Assembly (NCBI RefSeq): GCF_025399195.1
Contig: NW_026252120.1
Coordinates: 62,001 to 126,000, forward strand
Reading direction: 5' to 3'
Length of the DNA stretch: 64,000 bases
Source: Umbelopsis ramanniana AG
Taxonomy: Eukaryota; Mucoromycota; Umbelopsidomycetes; Umbelopsidales; Umbelopsidaceae
Part shown: piece by piece, positions 24,404 to 47,800 of the stretch
Numbering within the stretch: the first letter of the stretch is position 1
Layout: every line of letters begins with the position of its first letter
The notes under the pieces: generated by a model
Databases searched by the model: none
What the model was told of the DNA's origin: nothing
The model's input: the letters and a program-made list of their open reading frames with translations, nothing else
Position numbers and translations under genes: made by a program

Positions 24404-26278
24404 ACGCGGATGCAAGTAGCCGCTTGCAGTATGTTGCTCTTCCTGATGCTGGCTAGCAATTCTTCCTTGGATGTCTGATCCCGATCCTCTTCATCTTTGG
24501 CAGACTCGTAACAAATGTGAATCACAGTTGCTAATGTAAACTTTTACTTTAGGGCAGAGTATTCTTGTAACTATACCCTTTTACATTATAATGGGCAGCA
24601 ATTTGCATGATGGTGAGTAATCCTTTCGAGTACCTTCATTCCTTCGTGGTTGATATGATGAAAGAAACAAACTACTCAGTAATAGGAAGAGCCGTCTTAT
24701 GGGTTCTTCAAGCCCTGTGCTGACAAACGTTTGAAAACATATCTGAAATACCATACCTTTTCACATACCTATCCAATGCATTCAATAACTAATGCTTACA
24801 ATCGTTTCTTTTCCTATCAGGCTCTTTTTTATGAAGTCCCATCTCAAGTTCTGCAGTGTAGGTAGTTTTTGGTGAATTATTAATAAATAGTGATTTCAGT
24901 CTTCCGAAGTTTTGCTTTTCATGAATGTTTTTACCTTCACCATCACCCATCTTTTTATTCTGTTACACATTCGCTCATATGATGAATCACCGTGTTTTTG
25001 GCACCTCTTGTTTGAATACTCACCCGCCAAAAGGCCGATGAGTATGATGCACGCAAAATCGGATCTGATGAACGATGTAACATGACAATAAAAAGTATCG
25101 CATTTACTATAAAACTCGATTGCATTCCCAATATCACGATACGTGTATTGTTTTGTTCTGAAAAATTTTAAAAGTTGTCGAGAGGTCACAATAGCGGACA
25201 TTAGTGGAGATAGTTGTTCTAGAGAAGCAATGTTTTAAAGCAAGATGGCAATTGAGCTTTCTATGGGATGGGAAGAGTTAAGTCACTGTTGATGTTCATT
25301 TCGCCCGCATACGTTCTTAAAGGAGTGCACCAGCAATTTACAGATGATATCATTTCACAATTGCATGGTAAAACGAAGGCTTCAAACACTACATCGTTCT
25401 AAGAATATATCCCACAACTTGTCATAATTTGAACACTTTTGGCCAGAAACGCAACATTTTTCATGAATGAACTTTAGAAACTACTACGGTTTTAGCGAGC
25501 CGTAGCAAAGCGTAAGATTTTACCAACTTGTGTACCTACCCATGTGCACTGGTGAATGGCAAATCGCAAGAACAACTTTCTCCAACTCACTCGTGTTTGA
25601 TTATTATCAACCACACGATAAAGGGACATACATTTGAATTGCAAAAGTGTGATATTATATAAAAACTTGAAAGGAAAAAAAGAAAATTTTTCATTAACAC
25701 AATGTGGCAGTAAAGATAGGCTCAAACATCATTTATGGTTCCATTACCGACATTACCGACTACTATTATTCTGGGACAGATTACATACAACAAAGTCTTA
25801 TCAGTGGATATTCTTTCTCATATCCAAGTGTTTGTATAGATGTATAGATTACGTATCTTCGATTCTAGTATGCAATATCATTTCTACTGCTCTATGGAAT
25901 AAGGATAGTCTATCAGGCTAGAAGAAATAGTCTGCGAAAGTGGTAATTTGTGTGTTCATAAATAGCTTAAATCTTAGGTGATATACAAGCTATATGTCTA
26001 AGGAAAAGCGAAAGCAAGAGTTTCATGTTAGATCTTCGTTCTTCCTTCGTTTTAAGTCCTCATCGCATGGTCGTCGACGGGCTTTGCCGACGTCAATAGG
26101 TGTTGCTTAGCAACAAACGCCACACAGTTTATTCTTTTAACTCTTTGAGCGTCTGTTGCTAGGTGCACAAACCTGACAATGTGGAATCTGTCTTCGATCA
26201 TTATAAAACGTTTATTCAAGAGTAGTATAAAATATCTACTGGAAAAAAGATAAAAATCCCATGACTCAAGCCTAATCA
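24404..26278. other. Long AT-rich intergenic region
   Basis: About 1.9 kb with only short, non-conserved ORFs. I see no tRNA, repeat or transposon remnant. The right end (26100-26278) is the promoter of the first member of the tandem family. It marks the border between the housekeeping block and the family array. Confidence 0.5.
26102..26114. promoter_or_regulatory. RFX/X-box-like palindrome, family copy 1
   Basis: GTTGCTTAGCAAC, a near-perfect 13-bp palindrome of half-sites GTTGC/GCAAC, 177 bp upstream of the ATG. It resembles the X-box bound by RFX-family factors (fungal Crt1/Sak1/RfxA). TATAAAA follows at 26212. Confidence 0.6.
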
Positions 26279-27415
26279 ATGTTTTCACTCAACCCTTTCT
26301 ACTACCAGCTCTGCGTTCTATTTCCCAAAAACTTGGACATCAAATCTATCCAAAAATGTCCTATAGACGATGAATGCGATTTCACTCCTTTAGAGGGTAA
26401 CGTGGCCAGTGGTAGACTAGGATCAGCATTTGTTATTTTACAAAAAGACCACTTCACTGCACACATTGCTGGCCATACAATCAAATGTGACTACAATTGT
26501 CGAAATCGCGTTATGTCTGTCCTCTCGAGCTACCGGCATCTTGGACGCCTTGATGATGAGAAAGAGATTGTTGAAACTAATTTTGGACTCGACCTTATCG
26601 ATGATGTTGTTCAAAACAATGAACTACCACATTTAATCTTCAGTAATGAAAGGTATCCGGAGCGGCGCAATACTAATACCATCCAGGAGCACTTCATCTC
26701 TGTGGACATCCAAAAGTTTGCAGAAATCACTAAATCCAAACCATGCAACCAAGACTCGTTTATAGTATGTCTGGGACGAAAAAATTACATTCACTATCGA
26801 TTTATGTGTTGCAACGTGAAGACGCTCGAAACATACGAGTACACCAGTGAAACTAAATCTCGTATCGAAAAAGAGTTGATCGACAACGTCGATGGCTGTT
26901 TTGCCATATGGAAAGCTGAAGACGAGGCACGCAAGTTAAGCAAACCTGCTAAAAGGGTTTCCAACTTTCACTTAGTGGATTCCCAAGGCCATCCCGTAAA
27001 GGAGAATACTGATTACTATCTTGAAATGCATGATCAGCCTAACGATGTCCTGAAAATCAAGGAATACAAACCAATTATCTACGCCACATACCACCTCAAT
27101 CGAGCAGACAGGATAGTTGTTAGATATTCCATTATAGATGGAATACACTATCTCATTTGCGAGGATCAATTTTTGCAAGTGCACGATTTTCAGGATGAAA
27201 TCGGATTCAAGGATAAAATTCCTGAGAAAGAAAAGAGAATAGAATTTCATACAACGGAAAATAACACTTTCAGGACCGCTCAATGGGATAATGATATCTG
27301 GCTCACATTTCAAAAGGAAACGCTTAATCATAGTTCAGTAACTTTCAACGATAATGAGGCAGTTGTAAGATGGGATAAACCATTGGAATTGATCTTGAAA
27401 AGAGTACAAACTTAA
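26279..27415 (+). CDS. Tandem family protein, copy 1 (unrecognised family)
   Basis: Intronless, 378 residues, the most diverged copy. Relative to its paralogues it has about ten extra N-terminal residues before the shared LFPKNLDIKSIQKC stretch. Shared motifs: KCPIDDEC, IKCDYNCRNRVM, VDIQKFAEITKSKPCN, MCCNVKTLETYEY, ENTDYYLEMHD, FHTTENNTFRTAQW and a final LELILKRV. No signal peptide or membrane helix, so a cytosolic or nuclear location is expected. The last 140 or so residues look beta-rich and could form a trefoil or jelly-roll-like domain (inference from alternating hydrophobic strands). Function unknown. It is unusual for this neighbourhood in lacking introns. Confidence 0.85.
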   Translation: MFSLNPFYYQLCVLFPKNLDIKSIQKCPIDDECDFTPLEGNVASGRLGSAFVILQKDHFTAHIAGHTIKCDYNCRNRVMSVLSSYRHLGRLDDEKEIVETNFGLDLIDDVVQNNELPHLIFSNERYPERRNTNTIQEHFISVDIQKFAEITKSKPCNQDSFIVCLGRKNYIHYRFMCCNVKTLETYEYTSETKSRIEKELIDNVDGCFAIWKAEDEARKLSKPAKRVSNFHLVDSQGHPVKENTDYYLEMHDQPNDVLKIKEYKPIIYATYHLNRADRIVVRYSIIDGIHYLICEDQFLQVHDFQDEIGFKDKIPEKEKRIEFHTTENNTFRTAQWDNDIWLTFQKETLNHSSVTFNDNEAVVRWDKPLELILKRVQT

Positions 27416-27783
27416 ATAAATGAAGTGTCCCTTTGAGTCAAAGAGTGAGTGTGCTTTTGAAGCTTTGGTTATATCTTCATTTGCAAACCAATGCTGCAGT
27501 CCAATTTTTTAACTTGCATGGAGTTGAAAATTTAGCTTCTCAGATTTTGTATTTTCAGGAATGGTGTTTTTGCTCGTTAGCTGGCAACCAAAGCTACTTG
27601 GCCACTTTTTCATAGCAACCACGTGACTCAGCTATAGAAACTGAGAAAGCGTCCTTGACGACAGATGTCGTACTGCTACCAAATTGGTATAAATATATGG
27701 GCTACAGATGAGAGTTATAAAATTGACAGCTGATAAATTCACAACATTTTCAAAGCACCACCGCTGACCCAAAAAGCACCACT
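27416..27783. promoter_or_regulatory. Promoter of family copy 2
   Basis: 368 bp between copies 1 and 2. It contains a diverged X-box-like palindrome, GTTAGCTGGCAAC (27576-27588), 208 bp before the ATG, a second half-site ATAGCAACC next to CACGTG at about 27613-27626, and TATAAATA at 27688. Confidence 0.55.
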
Positions 27784-28854
27784 ATGGACGTTCTATATCC
27801 TAAAGGCTTTAATCTTTCTTCGATCGAAAAATGTATGATCGACTATGACTGCCACTTCATCGCATACGAAGATGACGAAGCAATCAATTCTAGACTAGGC
27901 ACGGATTTCGTAATTCTGCAAGAAACATGCTTCATTGCTCATGTTAGTCGTGCTTCTACTGGTTATGCTAACGAAGAAGAATTCAAGTGTGACTACGATT
28001 GTCGCAATCGTGTCATGAAAGATTTATATCCGAACAAATGGGAGCGCTCTTTTCAATTTGATCTCGAAACAGTTGATGGTGTCATTCATAACACTTCACC
28101 GCCTTACCTGCTCTTCACAAATGAATGCATACGGGGTTATAGCTCAGATCATAATACTATCATCGCAAATTATACTAGAGTTGATATACCCAAGTTTGCA
28201 GAAATGATCAAGTCCAAACCGTGCAATGACAAGTTCTTCGTTGTATACCTCGGAGATGACCAATATATATGCTGTAACACGCGAACCCTCGAAACATACG
28301 AATACAAGTCAGTGATCAAATATCGTGTCATTCAGATACTATGTGGCGAGTCTGATGATCCATTCATCCAATTGAAATCTGAATACGAACAACTCAGTTC
28401 GATCAATCCACTACCAAAGTTCTCTGATTTCCAATTGAAGGACATTGAAGGACAACCTGTATTAGAAAATACAGATTATCGTCTTGAAATGTATGATTAT
28501 GACGAGGAAGTTTTGGATATGCATGATTCTAAGCTTTACGCAACCTATTATCGGAATGCAACGGGCATGATGGTCGTCCAGTGCTCTATTATCGATGGAA
28601 TATATTACCTTGTTCGGAAGAACAGATACTTACACAGTGCGGAGGATTATAAATATACTGTGAGCTTCACCGATCAAATTCCGGTCAAACACCAGAGGCT
28701 ACAATTTCAAGTCACAGAGAAAAACACATTAAAGATAGTTCAATGGAATCAACTTAACTACCTCACAGCGTGTTCGGTAACCTCTAATTATACCGATATA
28801 TCGCTGGAAGCAGGAAATGATGATCACCTTGAATTGTACTTAAAAAGGTTATAG
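27784..28854 (+). CDS. Tandem family protein, copy 2
   Basis: Intronless, 356 residues, same family as 26279 and 29698. It opens MDVLYPKGFNLSSIEKCM and carries the conserved Cys pairs KCMIDYDC and FKCDYDCRNRVM, TNECIRGY, VDIPKFAEMIKSKPCN, ICCNTRTLETYEY and ENTDYRLEMYDYDEEVLDM. The C-terminal region ends LELYLKRL. Compared with copies 3 and 4, the stretch between CRNRVM and TNEC is reworked (no GISATRG). It is the closest relative of the decayed copy at 30842. No localisation signal visible. Confidence 0.85.
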   Translation: MDVLYPKGFNLSSIEKCMIDYDCHFIAYEDDEAINSRLGTDFVILQETCFIAHVSRASTGYANEEEFKCDYDCRNRVMKDLYPNKWERSFQFDLETVDGVIHNTSPPYLLFTNECIRGYSSDHNTIIANYTRVDIPKFAEMIKSKPCNDKFFVVYLGDDQYICCNTRTLETYEYKSVIKYRVIQILCGESDDPFIQLKSEYEQLSSINPLPKFSDFQLKDIEGQPVLENTDYRLEMYDYDEEVLDMHDSKLYATYYRNATGMMVVQCSIIDGIYYLVRKNRYLHSAEDYKYTVSFTDQIPVKHQRLQFQVTEKNTLKIVQWNQLNYLTACSVTSNYTDISLEAGNDDHLELYLKRL

Positions 28855-29697
28855 AACCCCCCGCCATCAATAAATGTGTAAAAAAAATTACAGTTCAACT
28901 ATGGAAGGATACTATGGTAGTTGATTCAGTGACTTTCTTGTAGCTTGCACTGTGTTGAATCATAAAGAACCGTGCGCCATTTGCACTTGGACAGCACGAA
29001 CCTAGAAACCGCCAATTAGTTAAATGATAGATGTAAGAGTTCAGCATCAACATAACATCCAACGATAGATATTTGGCATATAATAATGTATCTAAGTTTG
29101 ATTACAGAAAAAGAAATCTGACAGTATCTCAATGGTGTTCTTTCTTAGTCTTCTGGAAAAGTTTACAATTATAGGGCGATCAAAGCACATCAGTTTTGTC
29201 TACCTTCAGTTAAATCGAAAATGCCAGAGCATCTCCATATGTACTGTTTCTGTATTCAATGGAGTCGATCTAGTTACTATTTTTTCAAAATATTTCCTTC
29301 CCTTCAGTTTTGTAGGAGCAGCTTTCAATGGCAGCAATAGGCAGACCTCAAGAAGACATGAAACTTTTGAGACACTGCTACAGCTCTCGAGTTGATCATT
29401 CTAACATGAATACGAAGCAGAAGCGCATTATATACAGATATCTATTCAAAATTCTTACAATTCAGTGATAAGAAGCGTTTTCCTTAAGGTTTTGAAGGAA
29501 GAAATATCATGAGTTGCTAAGCAACAAGCGTTACATAACAACCACCGCCATGGCAACACCAACCTTCGTTGTTTGGAGCACAAGTTTGGCAAATATGGAT
29601 TCTCCGACCATAAACGGTACCACCTAATAGAATATAAAATCAGTTTTGAGAAAATAATTCATTTTTCAGACACGGCTTCTTAACATAAAGCAACACT
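28855..29697. other. Spacer between copies 2 and 3, part of a duplicated block
   Basis: 843 bp with no gene. Its sequence is recognisably repeated, with many changes, after the decayed copy (31373-32248): shared landmarks include a TTGGACAGCA stretch, an ACTGCTACAGCTCTCGA stretch and the almost identical last 190 bp before the ATG. So it is the spacer of a block that was duplicated. Confidence 0.6.
29513..29525. promoter_or_regulatory. RFX/X-box-like palindrome, family copy 3
   Basis: GTTGCTAAGCAAC, 185 bp before the ATG of copy 3. A second element, GCCATGGCAAC, lies 22 bp further on (29547-29557) and matches the classic RFX half-site arrangement. TATAAAA is at 29633. Confidence 0.65.
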
Positions 29698-30768
29698 ATG
29701 GACGTTCTATATCCAAAAGACTTTGATCTTACTTCTATCGAAAAATGTATGATGGACTATGACTGCCACTTCATCGCATACGAAGATGACGAAGCAATCA
29801 ATTCCAGACTAGGCACGAATTTCGTAATTCTACAAGAAACATGCTTCATTGTTCATGTTGGTGGTGCTACTACTGGTTCTGGTAACGAAGAATTCAAGTG
29901 TGACTACGATTGTCGCAATCGTGTCATGAAGGACTTGCACCCAAAGAAAGGAGAAAAATTTCGCGGCATCTCCGCTACGAGAGGTACTGATGGTATCTAT
30001 TACAACAATGCAGCACCTTATCTTCTCTTTACAAACGAATGCATAAGAGGATACGCAGGTACGGATAATACCATCATTGCCAACTATACACGAGTCGATA
30101 TACCCAATTTTGCAGAAATAGCCAAGTCCAAGCGGTGTAACGAAAAGTTCTTTGATGTATACCTTGGGAATGATGACTACATATGCTGTAATAGGCAAAC
30201 TCTCGAAACATACGTATACACATCAGTGACCAAACATCGTGTCATTCAGATACTATGTAGCGAGTCGGACGATCCGTTTCATCAATTGAAATCTGAAGAC
30301 GAAAAGCTCAAATTGAGCAAGCCTCTACCAAGGAACTCCTCCGACTTTCATTTGAAAGACATTGAAGGACATACTGTAGAAGAAAATACTGACTACTATC
30401 TGGAAATATACGATCACGATGATGATGTTCTGGATATGTATGAAGATGAACTTTGGTCAAGATACTATGAATACCAAATTGAACAAACAATCGTTCAATG
30501 TTCCATTGTAAATGGAATACATTATCTTGTTTATGGAAACAAATACCTTCACGTTGCGGATGAAAGTAATGCAATAACACTTTCTAACCAAGTACCATAT
30601 CAGCACCAGAGATTACAATTCCAATTCACTGAAAATAATACTTTCCGAACTGTTCAATGGAACCAATGCATCTTTCTCATACTCAACATATTAACGTGTT
30701 CTAGTGGGTCAGTGCAATTCACGGCAGATGATGGTCCACCTCTGGAGCTTTACTTGAAAAGAGTCTAA
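29698..30768 (+). CDS. Tandem family protein, copy 3
   Basis: Intronless, 356 residues. N-terminal half: MDVLYPKDFDLTSIEKCM, DYDCHFIAYEDDEAINSRL, ETCFIVHVGG, FKCDYDCRNRVM, GISATRGTDGIYY, TNECIRGYAG, KSKRCNEKFF, DDYICCNRQTLETY. C-terminal half: HTVEENTDYYLEIYDHD, VQCSIVNGIHYLVYGNKYL, LQFQFTENNTFRTVQW and LELYLKRV. Over the first 170 residues it differs from copy 4 at only about five positions, but the C-terminal half differs at a large share of positions. Eight or so cysteines are conserved across the family. Function unknown; no transmembrane or secretion signal. Confidence 0.87.
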   Translation: MDVLYPKDFDLTSIEKCMMDYDCHFIAYEDDEAINSRLGTNFVILQETCFIVHVGGATTGSGNEEFKCDYDCRNRVMKDLHPKKGEKFRGISATRGTDGIYYNNAAPYLLFTNECIRGYAGTDNTIIANYTRVDIPNFAEIAKSKRCNEKFFDVYLGNDDYICCNRQTLETYVYTSVTKHRVIQILCSESDDPFHQLKSEDEKLKLSKPLPRNSSDFHLKDIEGHTVEENTDYYLEIYDHDDDVLDMYEDELWSRYYEYQIEQTIVQCSIVNGIHYLVYGNKYLHVADESNAITLSNQVPYQHQRLQFQFTENNTFRTVQWNQCIFLILNILTCSSGSVQFTADDGPPLELYLKRV

Positions 30769-30841
30769 AATACATTCTAAAACTACTGAACATTGAAATT
30801 TAGCTGCCAAGTAAAGTAAATACATAAAATATATGGCACAC

Positions 30842-31372
30842 GGACTCTCAAAACATATGACTATAGGTCAGTGGGCTAATATCCGCAAGAATAAGATACT
30901 ATGCGGCAAGGTGGATGATCTTTACGTTCAAATTGAAATCTGAATAAAAACAATTGAAATCGATTAGGTCACTACCAAGGTCCTCTAAATTCCATCGAAT
31001 CCATTGAAAGACAATCTGTATTGAAAAAAACAGATTATCGTCTAGAAATGTATGATTATGACTAGCATGTTTTGAAATGCATAGTATCAACTTTATACAA
31101 CCTATTACGTAAACGGGTTGGACATGATGGTTGCCCGGTGCTTCGTTATCGATAGAATGGATCAACTTGTTCGAAAAACAAAACCCTACACATTCAGGAT
31201 GGTAGAGACACCATGAACTTAACCGAGATATTCCCGGTCAAACATCAGAGATTACAACCTCAAGTCACGATGAAAAACTACCTCAAAGCGTGGATGGTGT
31301 CTCCAATTGTACTGCTCTATTAATAAAAGCAGGAATCGACGATCCCTTGAATTATGCTTCAAAAGGCTATGG
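30842..31372 (+). pseudogene. Decayed fifth copy of the family (C-terminal half, copy-2-like)
   Basis: No long ORF, yet the DNA aligns along its length with the second half of copy 2 (from the TLETYEY codons to the stop). Landmarks kept include the AACAGATTATCGTCTAGAAA region (about 31029), the CCGGTCAAACATCAGAG region (about 31231) and the final Leu-Lys-Arg-Leu codons (about 31360). It carries several in-frame stops and indels, and the N-terminal half is missing. Copy 2 and this relic share flanking sequence, so it came from a block duplication and then decayed. Confidence 0.8.
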
Positions 31373-32248
31373 AAGCTTCTGCAATAAATAACAGTGCAAA
31401 AAAAAATTACATCTCAGATATGGACAATTTTGAAGATACTTGATGTAGTAGTCTTCTTGAAGCATGTTATGAGTTAAAGTTTGAAGCACCCATGGCGTTC
31501 ATTCAACTTGGACAGCATGTTCTAGAAACACAGCCCTCCCATTCCTGTGTTGGCTCAACAAGATCAAAGATGGCAAATATATACATCCGCCATCAGTATA
31601 GCATATGGAAGCAGAAGCTTGACTTGTATGATAAAGGTTTACGTTCTGAAAGTAGGGAAACATTCTCACATCATCTCTGCATACGTTTACTCAACCTTCA
31701 GGATAAATCTACATTACAGGGCCGTCAAACAACATCTTTTTCTCTCGTTCCTTATTTCAATCAAAATTGACAGAGCACATCCATATATATCTGTTTCAGT
31801 TGTCAATGTAGGTCGATATTTAAAACGAGTTCTGAATGTCTCCTTTCCCACAAGTATGCAGAATCGCGCGTAATGGCAGAAATGTCTTGTGATAGTATGG
31901 AACGTTTTAGATACTGCTACAGCTCTCGAATGGTTCTTTCTGAAAATAACTGCAAGAGCAACAGCACCTTCCTCCTCAGGTGTCTATCTATAAGGTATCC
32001 TTGCATTTTGGACGATTACGGATGTTTATTGATTGTTGTAGACGGAATAAATACATTATGTGTTGCTAAGCAACAAGCGTTACATAACAACCACCGCCAC
32101 GACAACACCAACATTGGTTGCTGGAGCACAAGTTCGACCAATGCGGATTCTCCGACCATAAACGGTACCACCTGGAGTAGAATATAAAGATCAGCGTTGA
32201 GAAATAATTCATTTTTCAGGCACAGCTTCTGACACATACAGCAACACT
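31373..32248. repeat. Duplicated spacer and promoter of copy 4
   Basis: This stretch repeats 28855-29697. The first part is diverged; the last 190 bp, from the palindrome to the ATG of copy 4, is nearly identical to the copy 3 promoter, including the ACATAACAACCACCGCCA stretch and the TCTCCGACCATAAACGG stretch. No gene is supported within it. Confidence 0.7.
32062..32074. promoter_or_regulatory. RFX/X-box-like palindrome, family copy 4
   Basis: GTTGCTAAGCAAC, 187 bp before the ATG of copy 4, identical to the site of copy 3. The second element seen in copy 3 (CCATGGCAAC) is altered here to CCACGACAAC. TATAAAG is at 32183. Confidence 0.65.
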
Positions 32249-33292
32249 ATGGACGTTCTATTTCCAAAAGACTTTGATCTTACTTCTATCGAAAAATGTA
32301 TGATGGACTATGACTGCCACTTCATTGCATATGAAGATGACGAAGCAATCAATTCCAGGCTAGGCACGAATTTCGTAATTCTACAAGAAACATGCTTCAT
32401 TGTTCATGTTGGTGGTGCTACTACTGGTTCTGGTAACGAAGAATTCAAGTGTGACTACGATTGTCGCAATCGTGTCATGAAGGACTTGCACCCAAAGAAA
32501 GGAGAAAAATTTCGCGGCATCTCCGCTACGAGAGGTACTGATGGTATCTATTACAACAGTGCGATACCTTATCTGCTCTTTACAAACGAATGCATAAGAG
32601 GCTATGCAAGTACGGATAATACCATCATTGCCAACTATACACGAGTCGATATACCTAAATTTGCAGAAATAGCCAAGTCCAAGCGGTGTAACGAAAAGTT
32701 CTTTGATGTATACCTTGGGAATGATGACTACATATGCTGTAATAGGCAAACTCTAGAAACATACGAATACAAATCAGCGATCAAATACTGTGTCATTCGG
32801 ATACTATGTGGCAAGTCCAATGATCCATTTCGTCAATTGATTAAGCCTCTACCCAGGAAGTCCTCCAACTTCCATTTGAAAGACATTGAAGGGCATATTG
32901 TGGAAGAAAATACTGATTACTATCTAGAATTATACGACAAAGACAGTGATGTTCTGAAAATTTGGGATAATCTCCTTCACTCAGGTTACTATCTTAGCCG
33001 AACAGAACGGATCATTGTTCAATGTTCCATTGTTAATGGAATACACTATCTTGTTTATAAAAACAAATACCTGCACGTTGCGGATGGAAGTGATGAAATT
33101 ACGTTTACTGACCAGCTACCGGATCGGCACCAGAGATTACAATTCCAAGTCACTGAAGATAACGCCTTCCTAATTCTTAAATGGGACCAATGCAACTTTC
33201 TCATACTTGAAGTCATAACATGTTCTTATGGTTCTGTATACTTCACAACAAATTACTATTCACCTCTTGGGCTGTACTTGAAAAGGGTCTAG
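32249..33292 (+). CDS. Tandem family protein, copy 4
   Basis: Intronless, 347 residues, nine shorter than copy 3 because of a deletion before KPLPRKSSNF. The first 170 residues are about 97% identical to copy 3. From the LETYEYKS stretch on it becomes closer to copy 2 for about 25 residues, then diverges from both (YDKDSDVLKIWDN, LKWDQCNFLILEV, LGLYLKRV). This mosaic suggests recombination or gene conversion between members. Conserved cysteines are kept. It lies tail to tail with the BCS1-like gene, 253 bp apart. Function unknown. Confidence 0.87.
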   Translation: MDVLFPKDFDLTSIEKCMMDYDCHFIAYEDDEAINSRLGTNFVILQETCFIVHVGGATTGSGNEEFKCDYDCRNRVMKDLHPKKGEKFRGISATRGTDGIYYNSAIPYLLFTNECIRGYASTDNTIIANYTRVDIPKFAEIAKSKRCNEKFFDVYLGNDDYICCNRQTLETYEYKSAIKYCVIRILCGKSNDPFRQLIKPLPRKSSNFHLKDIEGHIVEENTDYYLELYDKDSDVLKIWDNLLHSGYYLSRTERIIVQCSIVNGIHYLVYKNKYLHVADGSDEITFTDQLPDRHQRLQFQVTEDNAFLILKWDQCNFLILEVITCSYGSVYFTTNYYSPLGLYLKRV

Positions 33293-33545: not shown

Positions 33546-36500
33546 TCACTTCTTCTCCGCCTTGACACCTTTGTTACAAGTACTAGCCTTTCGCTGCAAA
33601 AAGTCGTCCAACTCTTTTCTTGCTCGCTCGGTACCTGAGTCGTATTCGCTACTATCTTCAGGATCAGTATTGGCTGTGGCACGTTTTGGACTCTTCGCCA
33701 ATGACTTTCTCCCAGAACGAGTAGGCAAATTGGCGGCTTTATGTAAGCTTGTGTGCTTTTGGGAGCTAGCAAACTTTCGTAGAGGGCTATCGTTATCGTA
33801 GTGGACCTTTTTCCGCGCTTTACCAGCCAAATCTTTGTTGACTGCGGGCTCCAAACATGTGTTCTCCTCTTCTCGCTTAAGCTTTGTATCCGGTTTTTCA
33901 TCCCGCCATTCGTTTTCATCCGAAATCATCTTTTGCTTGCTTCGTTCTCTTTTGAGGCGCCTGTTGAATTTGTAGCTTGCTCGCTTGGCATGAAAGCTTG
34001 GTTTTCGATTTACAGCTCTTTTAATCGGCGTGACAGACTTCTCCCCTAAAACGCGATTTATCACGGCTGCCTCCACCCCTTGTATACCTTCCTTGAAAAT
34101 GAGATCGGTTGCTTCCATAAATGACAGACCCCGGCTCATTTTGTGCTTTAACACATCCGCTACTACCTTTTCCTGTTTCTTGGGAGAAGGAAATGGCATA
34201 CACTCGACTTGTTTACCAGTAGGAGTGAGATCCAGCTCAGATTGTTCGGAATCAGATCTGTTGCCTTCTGAATCATCTTGGTTATCGGTGGACGTATTAT
34301 TGCCATCTAGCACCACTTCTTTTAATTCACCCAAAGGTTCCTTAATAACATCAGTCTCGTCCGGTGGTGGTATCCTCTCAGAAACAGATGCCGTCGGAAG
34401 TCCAGTGGTCAGTGATTGCTTCTCTGGTTCAGCTTCAGATATATCGGTAGCTTTGACTTCCACTTCGAAGTGAGGGGTAATTTCAAGTATTTTTTCGCCG
34501 TGAACATCGGTTTCAGCTGTTATATTAACGTTGGCTTCGACTTCGGCACAAGGTTCGCTTCTGTTTTCTATTTCCTCGTCGTTTTCAAGGTCATCGTTGT
34601 CATCGCTTGGTTCCTTCACAGTACTTTTTGACATTTCTACTATTTGCTCTTCGTCTTCTTCATCAACTGTTTCCTCATCTTCCGTAGCCAGCTCTTCTTC
34701 CTCTGAATTTTCATCACTTCCATCAGTCATAGAAAGAGCTTCTTCTTCTATCACTTCTTCACTTTCAGAATCATGTCGATGGCTGTCAGTATCTTCCTGT
34801 GAGAGCTCATCTTGCTCATACTCCTCGGAAGAAGGGTCAAAATCTTCTTCTGTTGCTTTTTGTTGGTAAATAGGTAGTGTTGGTGTTACTCGCGGGATAG
34901 AAGGTGACGTTACATCTTGAACATTCAAATGCAGTGGGGTTGTTTGCGAAGTGACGACCACAAGCTGATCAACAGGATGAGGTTGGTTGGTAGATTTTGA
35001 TAAAGATGGGCGCAATGACTTGATGAACTCCAAAAATTCGTTTCCTTTATGAGCAATGACTTCAATATCATCATCTCTGCAGCTGAGGAAGAATGCTTGA
35101 ATTTCTGCCGGTGAAACGGTGTATGGCCGAATATAATTTGCGAAGCATCTACTGTAAAACTCGAGGTCATTTTTTGAAAATTTTGGCATCTTATGGCTGG
35201 ATTCGTCGCTTATCGATGACACTTTGCGTTTCATTCCTAAGAAGCTTGCAATAGATCCATAGGTGGCTGTGCTAGTATCGTCAGTAGACTGGTTGATTTG
35301 ACGCTGCCCAAAAAAGTTCATGAACATTTGCCGAATCTGAAAGTCATCAGCTAAGTTGAATGGTATCCGTCTGTCAACCCTAGGAATAACATCATCTCAG
35401 TAAATAGGCGGATCTAAAGAATCTTGGAGTGGACAGTAGCTTACCTTCCTGGTCGCAGAAGCGCAGCATCCAAAAGTTCAACTGAATTTGTAGCCATGAA
35501 AACAACTGGAAAAGATATTAGAATGTGCGTTAATGGCAGTAACAATGATTCATATCTCCTTACTTGTGCCTTCCTGTGATGTTACCCCATCCAAGCAATT
35601 CAAAATACTGTGCCAGCTAAGTCCATTGCGTATGTACTTGGACATTGAGGCAAGAGCATCGACATCTTCGATCAAAATCACTGAGTTTTGGGGGATGGTG
35701 TTCATCATTGAATTCAAGTTTGCTTCCGTTAAGGTTGGGTCGGAAAGGTTGATAGTGCATATATGCATGCGAAAGTAGGTAACCAAAGCCTGTACTAACG
35801 ATGATTTTCCTGTTCCTGGAGGACCTTCAAATAGGTACGTGCGTCGATAAGGAATGTTCTGGTGTTGATATAATTTGCTGGATGCGGAGAAACGCTTTAT
35901 GTCTTTGGACATTCGGTTAGTAACACGTAAATTGATATAGTAAATTTTGAAGGCTAATTATCACCTGCTATGAGATCTTCTTTTAACCCAACTGGCAAAA
36001 CCACCGAATCTAAATCCCGTATCTCCTTGTAATATGTCGAAGACCCTGTTATTACAAAAGGTAAATTTAGCTATAAGTTATAGTCCACAGGTCATCCAAA
36101 GAATATTTTGCTTACATCGGTGGTGTGGGCTGATGTATTGATAGATCCGTATCTAATTTTGATAATGTGAGACCGTGTCGTCAGTTTAGACTTAAAATTC
36201 TTATCTATTACCTTTCCATCATGTCTTTTCTCAAATGATTTGATGGCTGTGTCAACAAGTTCTTGGAGACAAGTTGGACTTCTCGATAACGTCCATAGCC
36301 TAATGGTCTTATTCGAAATTTGATGTGTCGCCCGCTGGAAAGGGAACGATGGCTCATTGGACGGTGAATGTTGTTCCAAGGTGTCTTTGCGAATCCGGAT
36401 CTTCTTTCCCTTGAAATGAATACTATGGCTCCCATACCCTGAGTTGCAGTTGATATGAAGACAATTGAGAAAATGCCGATTTAATTGGTACAATGAATTT

Positions 36501-40513: not shown

Positions 40514-43500
40514 CTAAAATCGAGTAGCCGGATCATAACCGGGAGAGTTCACTAGTGTTGTAACGCCCTTTGAAGATAGCAGAGTACCATAGGCTTCTAG
40601 TGAGACTTTGCCAAAGCTAGTACTATTATCCAATGGAACGACACCTATAGATAAAGTATTAGGTCCGTTGTGATTTAAAATGCCTTCTGGAATGTAGAAT
40701 AGGCGTTGTGGACCGAGATCGTTTGCTGGAACATTGAAACTGAGCAAAATGCAGCTTGTGGTATAACGGGTTTACTTTTACCTACCATATTTTCCAAGCT
40801 TCCACCCATTCACGAATAGAACGGCTCGATATCGTTTGCTGGTATTATCTTCAAACCTTACACCAATGGGAACGTCATAATTTTCTGGAATGTCAAGATT
40901 GAAAGTTGTGCGATACCAAGAGAGTCCGGTCCTGTTCCTATCATCTGGTACTGAAACCTTCTCCCACTGCGAATCTGGGTAGCCGGGAAGGTGCCAACCC
41001 ATTCTTTCTCCATACAATCCACCTTCATTGTATGGCCCACGGATTTTATCCACGATGTCTTCTCCGTTCAAATTACCTAGCAACAGCAGTTAGAGAGAGT
41101 ATAATCTACCATAGCCTTTTCTTTGAATAACAACCTTGAACCTTCCACTCGATGCCATCAGGTTTGAGGCCGATCAATGATACATCTGTAAAACCACGTG
41201 GTTGTTTGTATGTGTCGTCTGCAGCACCATCCTCTTCGTGCCCAGTAGTCCATGCTAAAAGTGCCAACACATTTTTACCATTGGCATTCAGTATAGTTTT
41301 GTCGATAGCAAATGTTCCTGTGGGTGTCGTTTCACCTCCAAGGTACTCCCCATTCAACCAGGCAATCCAAGCACCGCCAGTTCCTGTGCTTGCAGTGATC
41401 ATAATGTTTGTAACAGAATCGGAGTCATCAAATGTTCCTCGGAACCATAGGCTTCCATAGTGATAGCCTGAAAATGGATGTTGCGGTTAACATGAAAGAT
41501 ATATATTTCATACCTCTTGCTCATTCACTTTACCATATTCGTCACCATAGAGCACTGGGTATGTTGTCGGCTTGTATGGACTATTTGTACTTGTGTGGTT
41601 GGCGTTCATCCAGTCAGAATCATCAAATGACAGTTGCGTTTCTGGAGAGGCGCTAATGTACTGCCAGCTGGCTTTTGAAAGGTCGGTCAAAGTAATGTCA
41701 GCGCTGGGTCCCGGTATGAAGGACGTCCAGGTACCATAAGATGTGTTTCTTAGCTGAAGGGTTTGGTCGTTCCAGGTGATGGTGTTTATACTCTCAGAAG
41801 CGACAATTTCAATGTTAGTGTCTTGGTCTATGTCGCCATACAACGATAACGTGCTTCCTATTACTGAAGCATTGCGGACTAGATATGGTCCAGAAATGAG
41901 TACTCGCTCATCTGGTGCAATCTCAGGTGCCCACCATTTGGTCGCGCTTTCGTACCCAGCTACAAGGACCAAGAGGTCTTTGTTGGGTGATGAGATACAT
42001 ATTGGATTGGTGCCGTCGGGATGATGATAGTTGACCTGAAGGACATTGTTATTGTAGTCGCTTGTTACGTCAAAAGAACTACAAGTCAGATTGGCATCTC
42101 CAGAAGGATATTTCAGCGCAATTTCACCGGCATGTCCTTCATATGCATAAACCAGTAAAACATCTCGGGAATCTTGCACGATATGGGTAAAGATTTCACT
42201 TGTTGAATACACCAAATGTTGTGATCCAAAGTCGTAGTAAGCGGTGATGATTTTGGAATCTCGCCCATCTAGAGTCAAATAGGTACCCTTTTTGGCGGGA
42301 ATAGAGTACCGACCATCTTCTGTACTTATGAATATATTAAAGCTAAAGAGATGACGTTAAGCGAATACTACCATTTATGCTCTGGCTCCTGTGTAACTTC
42401 ACGCTTACTTGCTCACGCTTAAAGAAGACGCTATCAGATGCTGTGCTATGTAAAACTGTGTTTTAGTATTAGGGTCTTGTAGTGAGTCTACAAGGATAGC
42501 AAGGTTGGTCGAAAAGGCAGTACAGTGGTCTGTTGAAGTAAACGGCTTGACGGTGTTGATAAATGTAGCTAAACGTTTTATCAATACAATCATACATAGT
42601 GTCAATAATATTCAGATATAATGACTCACCTTGTAGCTTTACTTCATATGCCTTTGCAGTCATCATTCGAGGCTCTGATATTGAGGCTCCGTAATCGTAA
42701 CTGGTATATACGGCTGAGGCTCATGAGATTCGGTACGAACGGGCAGCAACAAATTTTTGTCTTAACTCACTAGGCTCAGCCATATCTCCCCAAGTCGTTC
42801 CACCTAAAATGGTTGATGATCAATAAAATGGATGAGCTAAAATGACTGTCAATCAAAAATTACATACCATAGGCCATATACAGATTGTGAATGGTAGCTC
42901 CGTGGGCATAGTTGTTCTTGTAGAAAACCTTAGCGAAGCGCTCATTTACCAGTTGTTGGCAGCTGCCATAGCCAGGCCCACCTATTCAAGATAGTCATCA
43001 ATTTCTATCACCCAATATAGTTCCTAAACATTCATCGGAAACACCTTACCCCATGGATCAAAAGCCCCTCCTGATTATGACAAAATGAATCAATAGTTCA
43101 TCGTTTTAAACTATGAGCGTATAGCATTTCGTACCTTGGAACTCGTAGATTGCCAGTGGCTCACTTGGGTTCGTTACCTGATGAAATAGCCGGAAGATCT
43201 TTGGTGTTTTGAGGGGCCAGCTATCGGGATTACTGCAGTCAAATCCGACAGGGTATGAGTCAAAACCGTAAACATCGACGGAACCCTTGCCATTTGCAAA
43301 ATTTCTCAAAGTTGCTGCGTCATTGAAAGTTGTTGGAACAACAATTCCATCGGCACGAACTTTCTCCTCTAGAGCTTGCATGTAGTTAGCATCCACATTG
43401 TAGGTATATTCGTTTTCTGCTCGTCAGTGTATGCGTTAGCGATGTAAAAGAAAGATCAAAGCCGGTTGTCAATTTGAAAAAATTCATTACCGATTTGGTA

Positions 43501-44812: not shown

Positions 44813-47800
44813 TCAAAAAGATACACGCTCTGCATAAGAAGGTGAATCCACCATGCCAACAGTAGGCTTTGAAGAGAGTAGCTTTCCATACGGTTTGAGA
44901 GTGACTTCTCCTAAAGTCACCGCTTCGTCAACTGCAATGACACCAATAGCAATTGAATTTTTGCCATTATGGTTCAAAAGACCTTCAGGGAGATAGAACA
45001 GTGTTTGTGGCCCCAAGTCGTTAGCTGCAAACAATAAATTTTTGATTCAATAATGGTAAAAGCAATGCGGTGTTTCGCCCAGAGTATGTTGACTTACCAT
45101 ATTTTCCAAGTTGCCAACCATTGATAAAAAGCAGTGCTCGATAGCGCTCAGTTTTGGTATCACTGAATTGGATACCCATTGGAACATCGTAATTCTTGGG
45201 AAAATCGAGCTCAAATGTAGTGCGATACCACGAAACACCAGGTTTTGCTTTAGTGTCTGGAACAGTTGCGTCCCCCCAAGTCTCATCAGGATACTCTGGT
45301 AGGTGCCATCCCATGCGCTCACCATATAGACCACCTTCATTTAATGCACCACGGACGGTGTCAGCAATATCTTGCCCACCACTGTTGCCTAAAAATTGAC
45401 GTGGGCATAGTTCATGTGAGAACCTTGGCATATAGTAAAATGTAGATGCTAAACGTACCTTGGATCTTCCAGGTTATTTCAGTAGTCTGACTTCCAAGTA
45501 AGCTCACATCAGAAAAACCTCTTGGCTGTTTATATTCGTCGTTTGTAACAAAATCTTCTTGATGACCAGTAGTCCACAATAGAAGCAAAATAACATTCTC
45601 CTCTGCTTGGCGAAGAACTGTATCATTCAATTGAAATTCGTAAAAATGGTTTGTCATTCCACCGAGATAATCCCCATTTAGCCAAGCAATCCACGCAGAT
45701 CCAGGTCCCATTGTGGCATTGACTTTCAACCCAGTTATGTCTGATGTGGCGTTGAATTTACCGCGAAACCATAGGCTCCCAGTGTGATAACCTACAGACA
45801 GTTGAACATGTGTAAATATGTGCAGCTTTCAAAAAGGAAATGCCCATTATGTGTTGCATACCATAGTCATCTGCATAAAGTACGGGAAGGTTCATTGGTT
45901 GCCGTGGGTTATTAGTCGCTTGGTGATCGGCAGGAACCCAGTTTGTGTCATTAAAGTCGTTGGCTGTTTCAGGCGAGGCAGGGCTGTACTTCCATGTTGC
46001 TTGCGCCAAGTCAGGGATTTCTACATCTTGTTCTGGCCCAGGAAGCTGACCAGTTAGGGTGCCGTACTGTGTAGGCGTAACCACTACATGGATTCCATTC
46101 CAGGTAACCTCACTGATCACTTCTGAAACAATGATCTCAATGTCGGTAGTAACATCAGTATCGCCCATTAATACCAATTGACTTCCTTCAATTTCAGCGC
46201 TGCGAACAAGGTACGGTCCAGATACAAGAACCGTTTCACCTCCGGAGCTTTGGGGTGCCCACCATCTTAATGCACTACTATATCCTGATACAATCAATAG
46301 CATTTCGCTTCCGTCTTCCGAAGGAGTGGTAGAAATATAAGTGCTACCTTCAGGATGAATGTAGTTGACTTGTAGCACATTATGATCGAACGAGTTAGAA
46401 ACATTTGCATCCACTCCATATGCTTGGATGTCGCCGGATACCGAAGTAATAGCAAATTCGCCGTGTTCGCCTTCATAAGCATATACAAGAATCACATCAC
46501 GGGAATCTTGCTTGATGTGGGTGAATATTTCGCTGGTTGAATAAAGCAAGTGTTGCGAACCAAAGTCATAGCTAGCGGTAAGTATCTTCGCATCCCGTCC
46601 GTTCAAGGTGATATGAGTGTCAAGTTTGCGAGGTATGGCAAATTCACCATCCGCCGTATTGAGCTTAATATGAAAACTTGGTGAGAACATCAGTAAGAAG
46701 TTGATGATAGAGGGATTATGGTTGTCAAAATAAGCTTACTTATCAGCGTTTGTGGTGTTAGTGACTTGGTGTTGAACGATATAAAAAGTGGTTGCTCCGC
46801 TGACGTCTCTCAGCCCGTCCACTCGAATGGCAAAGTTGTCTACTTCAGCCGTGATATTGGTTGTAGTCAAAAACGGTTTGACATCGCGCAGGAAAGTTGC
46901 TATGAAGTAACAGTTATTAGGTACTAAACTGAGTCTCATTTTTGTCGTAAGATTTTAAAGATGATTCAATAGTACCTTGTAGCTTAATCTCATATGCCTT
47001 TGGAGTCATCAGACGAGCTTCTGATATTGGTGCTCCGTAGTCATAGCTAGTATAAACGGCTAAATTGCGTCGGATCAGAATTCATAAAGCTTGAAAGCAG
47101 ATTGAGAGAATTCATTACTCACATGATGTAGGGCTCTCTCCCCAGCTGTTGTGGTCAAAACGTACGGGATAGAAGGGTCAGTCATTTCGTTTTGCCTCCG
47201 CAAGAAAAACCAAAGTCTCTCTATATTCATTTTTACCTTGTACCTCCTACAACAAAAATGATCAGTGTGCGTCAGTAAGAGTTAAAGTCACTTTCTGAGT
47301 CTTACCATAAGCCATATACAGATTCTGAATAGTTGCGCCTTGAGCGTAGTTGTTCTTGTAGAACACTTTCGCAAATTGTTCATTTACTAACTTTCGGCAA
47401 TTGTCATATCCTGGCCCCTAAGATAAAGTTAATGAATGCATAATGTGACATGAACCAACTGGATTTATACTGACACCCCAGGGATCAAATGCTCCTCCTA
47501 CAAAAAGGCATTAGTCACGGAAAATGTAATCGGATCCTAGCTTTACAACTCTACCTTGGAATTCGTAAAGCGCCATTGGTTGAGTCGGGTTCACATTAGC
47601 ATGAAATTCTCGATAATATGTACTAGCGTTGACTGGCCATATATCAGGGTTTCTGCAGTCAAATTGAACTGGGTACCCATCCCATCCATAGATATCAACG
47701 GATCCTTCGCCACGAGCAAAATGGTCACCGGGCCAAGGATCATTGAATGTGGAGGGTACAGTCATACCATCCTCTCTGAATTTGTCTGCAATAGCTTGCA

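Follow-up and report, generated by a model that had tools for sequence, protein, structure and literature searches.

An intronless Umbelopsis gene family with a predicted beta-trefoil half and a shared X-box-like promoter element

A window of 64,000 nucleotides from Umbelopsis ramanniana AG, a fungus of the Umbelopsidales (Mucoromycota), carries a tandem array of four related genes, g1 to g4, and one relic. The window is the whole stretch of DNA that was analysed and covers positions 62001-126000 of contig C34 (245,013 bases) in a genome of 22.8 Mb and 123 contigs. The encoded proteins very probably have a two-part anatomy, with a conserved cysteine-bearing N-terminal half and a C-terminal half predicted to be a beta-trefoil, and the genes share an X-box-like promoter element. 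The reading preferred here, with a probability of about 0.35 for the whole chain, is that these are cytosolic, RFX-controlled trefoil proteins which bind ligands in defence or stress.

26279..27415, plus strand: g1, subfamily A, 378 residues; trefoil half at about 26960-27412
27784..28854, plus strand: g2, subfamily B, 356 residues; trefoil half at about 28423-28851
29698..30768, plus strand: g3, subfamily B, 356 residues, the modelled protein; N half is residues 1-210
30343-30765, plus strand: predicted trefoil of g3, residues about 216-356
30826..31529, plus strand: relic of a g2-like gene, of which a decayed 3' half with its 3' flank remains; every frame is interrupted by stops
32249..33292, plus strand: g4, subfamily B, 347 residues; trefoil at about 32864-33289

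An earlier note, made from the sequence of the window, had described four intact, intronless open reading frames of 378, 356, 356 and 347 residues and a relic. The list of open frames gives each gene as an uninterrupted run from ATG to stop, and the exact coordinates and the relic alignment agree with that description. In an end-to-end alignment of the four proteins the mean column identity is 70%, g1 is 42-46% identical to g2, g3 and g4, and the N-half cysteine motifs that the note had pointed out (KC...D..C, KCDY.CRNRVM and CCN..TLETY) are present in all four. The relic aligns with the g2 region at 28262-29009 over 515 identities, 179 mismatches and 64 gaps, and is also covered by repeat families D4, D7 and D10 of the window repeat comparison.

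Architecture and fold

The C-terminal half is a beta-trefoil by confident structure prediction of g3, and the twelve strands with pseudo-threefold symmetry that define this fold are present in the model. The earlier suggestion of a beta-rich C half is thereby given a specific fold. The nearest folds found by Foldseek are Kunitz-type proteins of the soybean trypsin inhibitor (STI) kind, winged bean albumin 1 included. Clostridial toxin-complex and other toxin chains were also among the fold matches; these are explained by their containing a trefoil and no inference was drawn from them.

The N half was modelled with a predicted local distance difference test score (pLDDT) of 88 and has no convincing fold match, nor did a viral fold library return anything for it at E <= 0.001. 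A profile search, which the earlier note had proposed, found no Pfam or NCBIfam family at E <= 0.001 for the family proteins. The view that no known domain is present therefore stands for these databases and for the N half, and fails for the C half. The weaker matches to Pfam (Pico_P2A best at 0.0011, Acr30-35 at 0.0028, PH_34, WH1, DUF835 and others) and to NCBIfam (best 0.028) lie above the threshold and are inconsistent across members. Profile matches to PDB sequences were judged to be chance, both PCNA (0.0012, with no single stretch passing alone) and ribosomal S3Ae (0.14 and 0.25). The order of strands and helices looks similar in residues 1-104 and 104-210; an internal duplication is not supported, as the hhalign score of 19.1 compares with 19.2 for the best of 59 column-shuffled controls. 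That the N half is a diverged enzyme or nucleic-acid-binding domain of known fold, for example anticodon-binding-like, with the trefoil serving to target it, is considered unlikely.

The N half is strongly conserved, and Cys, Lys and Asp residues in it are nearly invariant. This bears on a further alternative, that the proteins serve storage or development in spores or hyphae and have no specific ligand. Some plant STI-fold proteins are storage proteins, and winged bean albumin 1 among the nearest folds, the multicopy tandem genes and the TATA-like promoters would all fit such a role. The conserved N half and its near-invariant residues suggest more than storage, however, and this alternative is held to be improbable.

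A hydrophobic run of at least seven residues within the first 35 occurs in none of 33 proteins. This is consistent with the absence of a signal peptide, which the earlier note had also remarked on.

One protein of Umbelopsis isabellina (P0024, 557 residues) has an extra trefoil-like domain ahead of a complete family protein. This points to the trefoil as a module that can move; alternatively, P0024 is a gene-model fusion of neighbours.

Distribution, duplication and exchange between copies

A set of 5.8 billion proteins was searched three times, with 35, 47 and 10 matches that together comprise 55 distinct proteins; the search requires shared 5-residue words, and very distant relatives may escape it. 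Four of the 55 come from the window, 27 carry an organism name and 24 do not (sources jgi, lgn and ena). All 27 named relatives are from Umbelopsis: sp. AD052 (10), U. ramanniana (5), U. ramanniana AG (2, P0020 and P0033), U. isabellina (5), U. vinacea (4) and sp. WA50703 (1). The trefoil half searched alone found ten proteins at E <= 1 under the same word requirement, all of them family members. The family is thus lineage-specific, as had been proposed, to the extent that no organism-named relative lies outside the genus. A literature search by the locus-tag prefixes of the family found no paper.

There are two subfamilies with a mean identity of 39% (8 and 25 rows, the chimeric P0027 excluded), and both are represented in the window, by g1 and by g2-g4. 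As both are present in several Umbelopsis species, the split is old. Adjacent locus tags join the subfamilies in U. isabellina (NQZ79_g3164/g3165; P0019 and P0043) and in AD052 (351584/351585; P0009 and P0044), which suggests an old pair that stood side by side. Recent expansion, another claim of the earlier note, accordingly applies to the recently shared first halves of g3 and g4 and not to the subfamilies. The AD052 models P0044, P0045 and P0047 lack a stretch from the middle of the conserved N half, perhaps through false introns annotated in an intronless family.

Further copies in the genome are a pair on contig C11 and a single copy on C67, giving seven copies and the relic at eight places on three contigs. 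The second C11 copy (L005, G000:C11:60415-61377) has an internal TAG and is probably decaying; it adjoins the intact copy, and the promoters of the two are very similar. A similar stretch precedes both C11 copies (L031, about 1660-2172, and its counterpart in L005), with a 171-residue open frame in one, and the duplication unit here seems larger than the gene.

Between g3 and g4 the non-synonymous divergence (dN) is 0.108 and the synonymous divergence (dS) 0.262; between g2 and g3 the values are 0.251 and 0.994. With dN well below dS, the open reading frames are genes maintained by selection on the protein. The first halves of g3 and g4 are nearly identical and the trefoil halves diverged, and dS between them climbs along the gene (0.058, 0.132, 0.404, 0.464 and 0.565).

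The two halves also have conflicting histories. Trees and approximately unbiased (AU) tests used 34 rows, namely g4 and 33 of the 55 database proteins (330-400 residues; models P0028, P0044 and P0045 dropped), and the groups for the AU tests were picked after the FastTree trees had been viewed. In the N-half tree g3 and g4 are sisters, with a support of 99 in the Shimodaira-Hasegawa-like approximate likelihood ratio test (SH-aLRT). In the C-half tree g3 groups with P0002 and P0003 of AD052 to the exclusion of g4 (SH-aLRT 98). The C-tree grouping is rejected on the N data (p 0.013) and the g3-g4 pair on the C data (p 0.0068). A clade of g3, g4, P0002 and P0003 with g2 is in the N tree (94, not starred) and is rejected on the C data (p 2.6e-8). 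Union with P0013/P0014 is in the C tree (96) and is not rejected on the N data (p 0.21). P0027 is chimeric: it begins like a subfamily A protein, and its trefoil is g2-like. The dS gradient together with the conflicting trees would point to gene conversion in the N half next to trefoils that have diverged, and the family is read as one in which conversion and shuffling may proceed under purifying selection.

The earlier note had also considered that the genes were acquired or retroposed. Retroposition was rejected, because promoter modules and flanks were copied along with the genes; the relic carries the g2 3' flank, and the g3 and g4 upstream regions share repeats D12-D14. As judged from these sequences, the copies were made by DNA duplication. 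Acquisition is likewise not supported, as no source beyond the genus came up in the searches.

The promoter element, RFX and the setting of the array

An addition beyond the earlier note is the shared X-box-like element. The elements before the window genes are as follows, the X-box-like sites without an assigned strand.

26102..26114: X-box-like palindrome GTTGCTTAGCAAC, 177 bp upstream of the g1 ATG
27576..27588: imperfect X-box-like site GTTAGCTGGCAAC, 208 bp upstream of the g2 ATG
29513..29525: X-box-like palindrome GTTGCTAAGCAAC, 185 bp upstream of the g3 ATG
29633..29639, plus strand: TATA-box-like element before g3
32062..32074: X-box-like palindrome GTTGCTAAGCAAC, 187 bp upstream of the g4 ATG
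About 26202/26226 (g1), 27688/27716 (g2) and 32183 (g4): TATA-like equivalents

All seven located genes have a GTTRCY-N-RGCAAC site or near match at -173 to -208 from the ATG. The patterns were derived from the sites of the window itself, and independent confirmation comes only from the genes outside it, with sites at -173 and -174 in the C11 copies and at -178 in the C67 copy. Six of the seven genes have TATA-like elements at -53 to -96, with an extra one at -269 in g3, and the C67 copy has CATAAATATC. Alignments among the sequences before g1, g3, g4 and the C67 copy score beyond the best of 30 shuffles. For the C11 pair, scores are near or barely above the shuffle maxima against the window genes and not above shuffles against C67.

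Genome-wide, GTTGCTNAGCAAC occurs nine times, compared with one occurrence of its reversed control; four of the nine precede family members, and the other five fall within open frames. The looser GTTRCYNRGYAAC is found six times before family members, where 0.0024 are expected in 7 x 300 bp. When g3/g4 and the C11 pair are each counted once, four are observed and 0.0017 expected. With an X-box-like site before each gene, the family is probably switched as a single regulon.

One RFX DNA-binding domain was found in the genome (93.3 bits), and a single RFX gene is described as usual for fungi that have RFX in a passage of PMC2873420. The family sites fit the degenerate X-box consensus RYYNYY N1-3 RRNRAC given in PMC2375033 in six of the seven genes, the exception being g2, whose left half in GTTAGCTGGCAAC is one letter off. 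The same paper describes this consensus as not predictive of regulation by itself (PMC2375033).

A related site points to DNA damage. The single GTTGCCATGGCAAC of the genome (L040, G000:C50:77324-77337) lies 175 bp upstream of the ATG of RAD51, with ACGCGT nearby; the start codon was assigned by eye and the protein is Rad51 by Pfam (6.4e-78). Genes around the other X-box-like sites were viewed as translations by eye, and only Rad51 was confirmed by family search. The site suggests that RFX may control RAD51 in Umbelopsis ramanniana. According to passages in PMC2873420 and PMC6315099, fungal RFX proteins regulate DNA-damage responses in several species, and yeast Crt1 is a repressor released upon damage (PMC6315099).

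The family could on these grounds be one of DNA-damage or cell-cycle stress, in a Crt1-like RFX regulon with RAD51, acting on the damaged or arrested state of the cell itself, for example by inhibition of an endogenous protease. The RAD51 distance falls inside the range of the family. The link is to one gene, however, noticed post hoc, its spacer has two bases and that of the family one, and the two-base-spacer pattern is rarer than its reversed control (7 sites vs 17). None of three ribonucleotide-reductase loci has a strict or intermediate X-box within the first 1600 bases of each; L048, L049 and L050 contain 0, 2 and 1 half sites and 1, 3 and 2 matches to the very degenerate consensus. A genus-only, shuffling family would also be unusual for a core damage response. 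A damage role is thus regarded as possible and somewhat less probable than one in defence or more general stress.

The neighbours of the array are unrelated to it. They include a single-subunit-type RNA polymerase gene in two open reading frames, a PPR protein, AAA ATPase pieces, beta-galactosidases and GH3. The immediate minus-strand neighbour is a single frame of 593 residues at 33546-35327; its start weakly matches a BCS1-type AAA lid (25.9 bits vs a cut-off of 27), and a long acidic tail comes after it. Two minus-strand frames about 3.5 kb apart, 41508-42278 and 45758-46690, have beta-galactosidase domains 2 and 3 and are probably a second tandem duplication within the window.

Proposed function and known systems

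RFX control of damage responses in fungi and the signal-less trefoil defence proteins of mushrooms make co-regulated cytosolic defence or stress proteins the likeliest reading. The trefoil half would present variable loops to a ligand, protease or glycan, on the conserved Cys-bearing alpha/beta platform of the N half. The genes would multiply through tandem DNA duplication, with gene conversion holding the N half uniform and trefoil halves of differing ages being retained or swapped. The shared X-box at about 180 bp before the ATG and, in most genes, the TATA box would place the family in one regulon under the RFX factor of the genome. The proteins would then be induced in defence or stress and would work in the manner of the beta-trefoil lectins and protease inhibitors that mushrooms have in the cytosol. 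The earlier note had suggested recognition or defence, a possible role that a trefoil makes plausible.

Several observations weigh against this. The trefoil fold is common to proteins of many functions, no described fungal defence protein with such a two-domain make-up was found, and the QxW motif of ricin-type lectins occurs after residue 200 in only one of 33 proteins. A dN/dS below 1 gives no sign of diversifying selection. The site before RAD51 speaks for DNA damage or the cell cycle more than for predators, and the g2 X-box is imperfect. The looser GTTRCYNRGYAAC has no overall enrichment (26 sites genome-wide vs 42 of the reversed control). Among its 15 remaining sites, at least L022, L026, L027 and L044 lie outside the listed open frames; the family therefore need not be the main target of the X-box-like site.

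If the defence or stress reading is correct, the Mucoromycota gain a multicopy family that joins a trefoil to a domain not described before, with a visible record of domain shuffling through gene conversion. The genes would form a set of RFX targets marked by a near-unique site, in which the role of fungal RFX outside yeasts is directly testable. A bolder version, a damage-inducible Umbelopsis arsenal under RFX with a uniform new N domain and diverged trefoil heads for different targets, is a long shot; it would give an early-diverging fungus a recognition system with a constant and a variable part, sharing the switch of RAD51. To our knowledge, few defence proteins or defined regulons have been described in early-diverging soil fungi.

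By fold, the closest known proteins are the Kunitz-STI-type beta-trefoils (soybean trypsin inhibitor family, WSCP and winged bean inhibitors). The STI N-terminal signature, as a PROSITE pattern, is present in 35 of 47 proteins, and among the 12 misses P0046 and P0047 have no match even to a looser core. Kunitz PF00197 is absent among the nine families listed for 33 family members (E up to 1) and among the five listed for 15 trefoil pieces (E up to 10), searches in which the HMMER filters drop most matches above about 0.1. The Kunitz STI family is characterized by conserved disulphide cysteines and secretion. Such cysteines are absent from the trefoil consensus, which has no Cys. The trefoil of g3 has three cysteines, and these are conserved in 53, 29 and 24% of 34 rows.

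The promoters resemble RFX/Crt1 regulons in that GTTRCY-N-RGYAAC is similarly placed before six of the seven genes of a genome with one RFX domain. They differ in the imperfect g2 site and in the lack of a strict X-box at the ribonucleotide-reductase loci examined, and the sites are putative. As far as searches show, such a target family for RFX is apparently undescribed in the literature.

The trefoil defence proteins of mushrooms are small proteins. None of the mycocypins, cocaprins or CCL2 is among the ten trefoil-profile matches at E <= 1, which come from a search that needs shared 5-residue words. Passages in PMC3355094 and PMC9104457 describe signal-less mushroom trefoil proteins that are a nematotoxic lectin or protease inhibitors. 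The Umbelopsis family is similarly a set of fungal trefoils, signal-less like CCL2 and the cocaprins, and it is arranged in tandem like the cocaprins, which are encoded by a tandem of three genes (PMC9104457).
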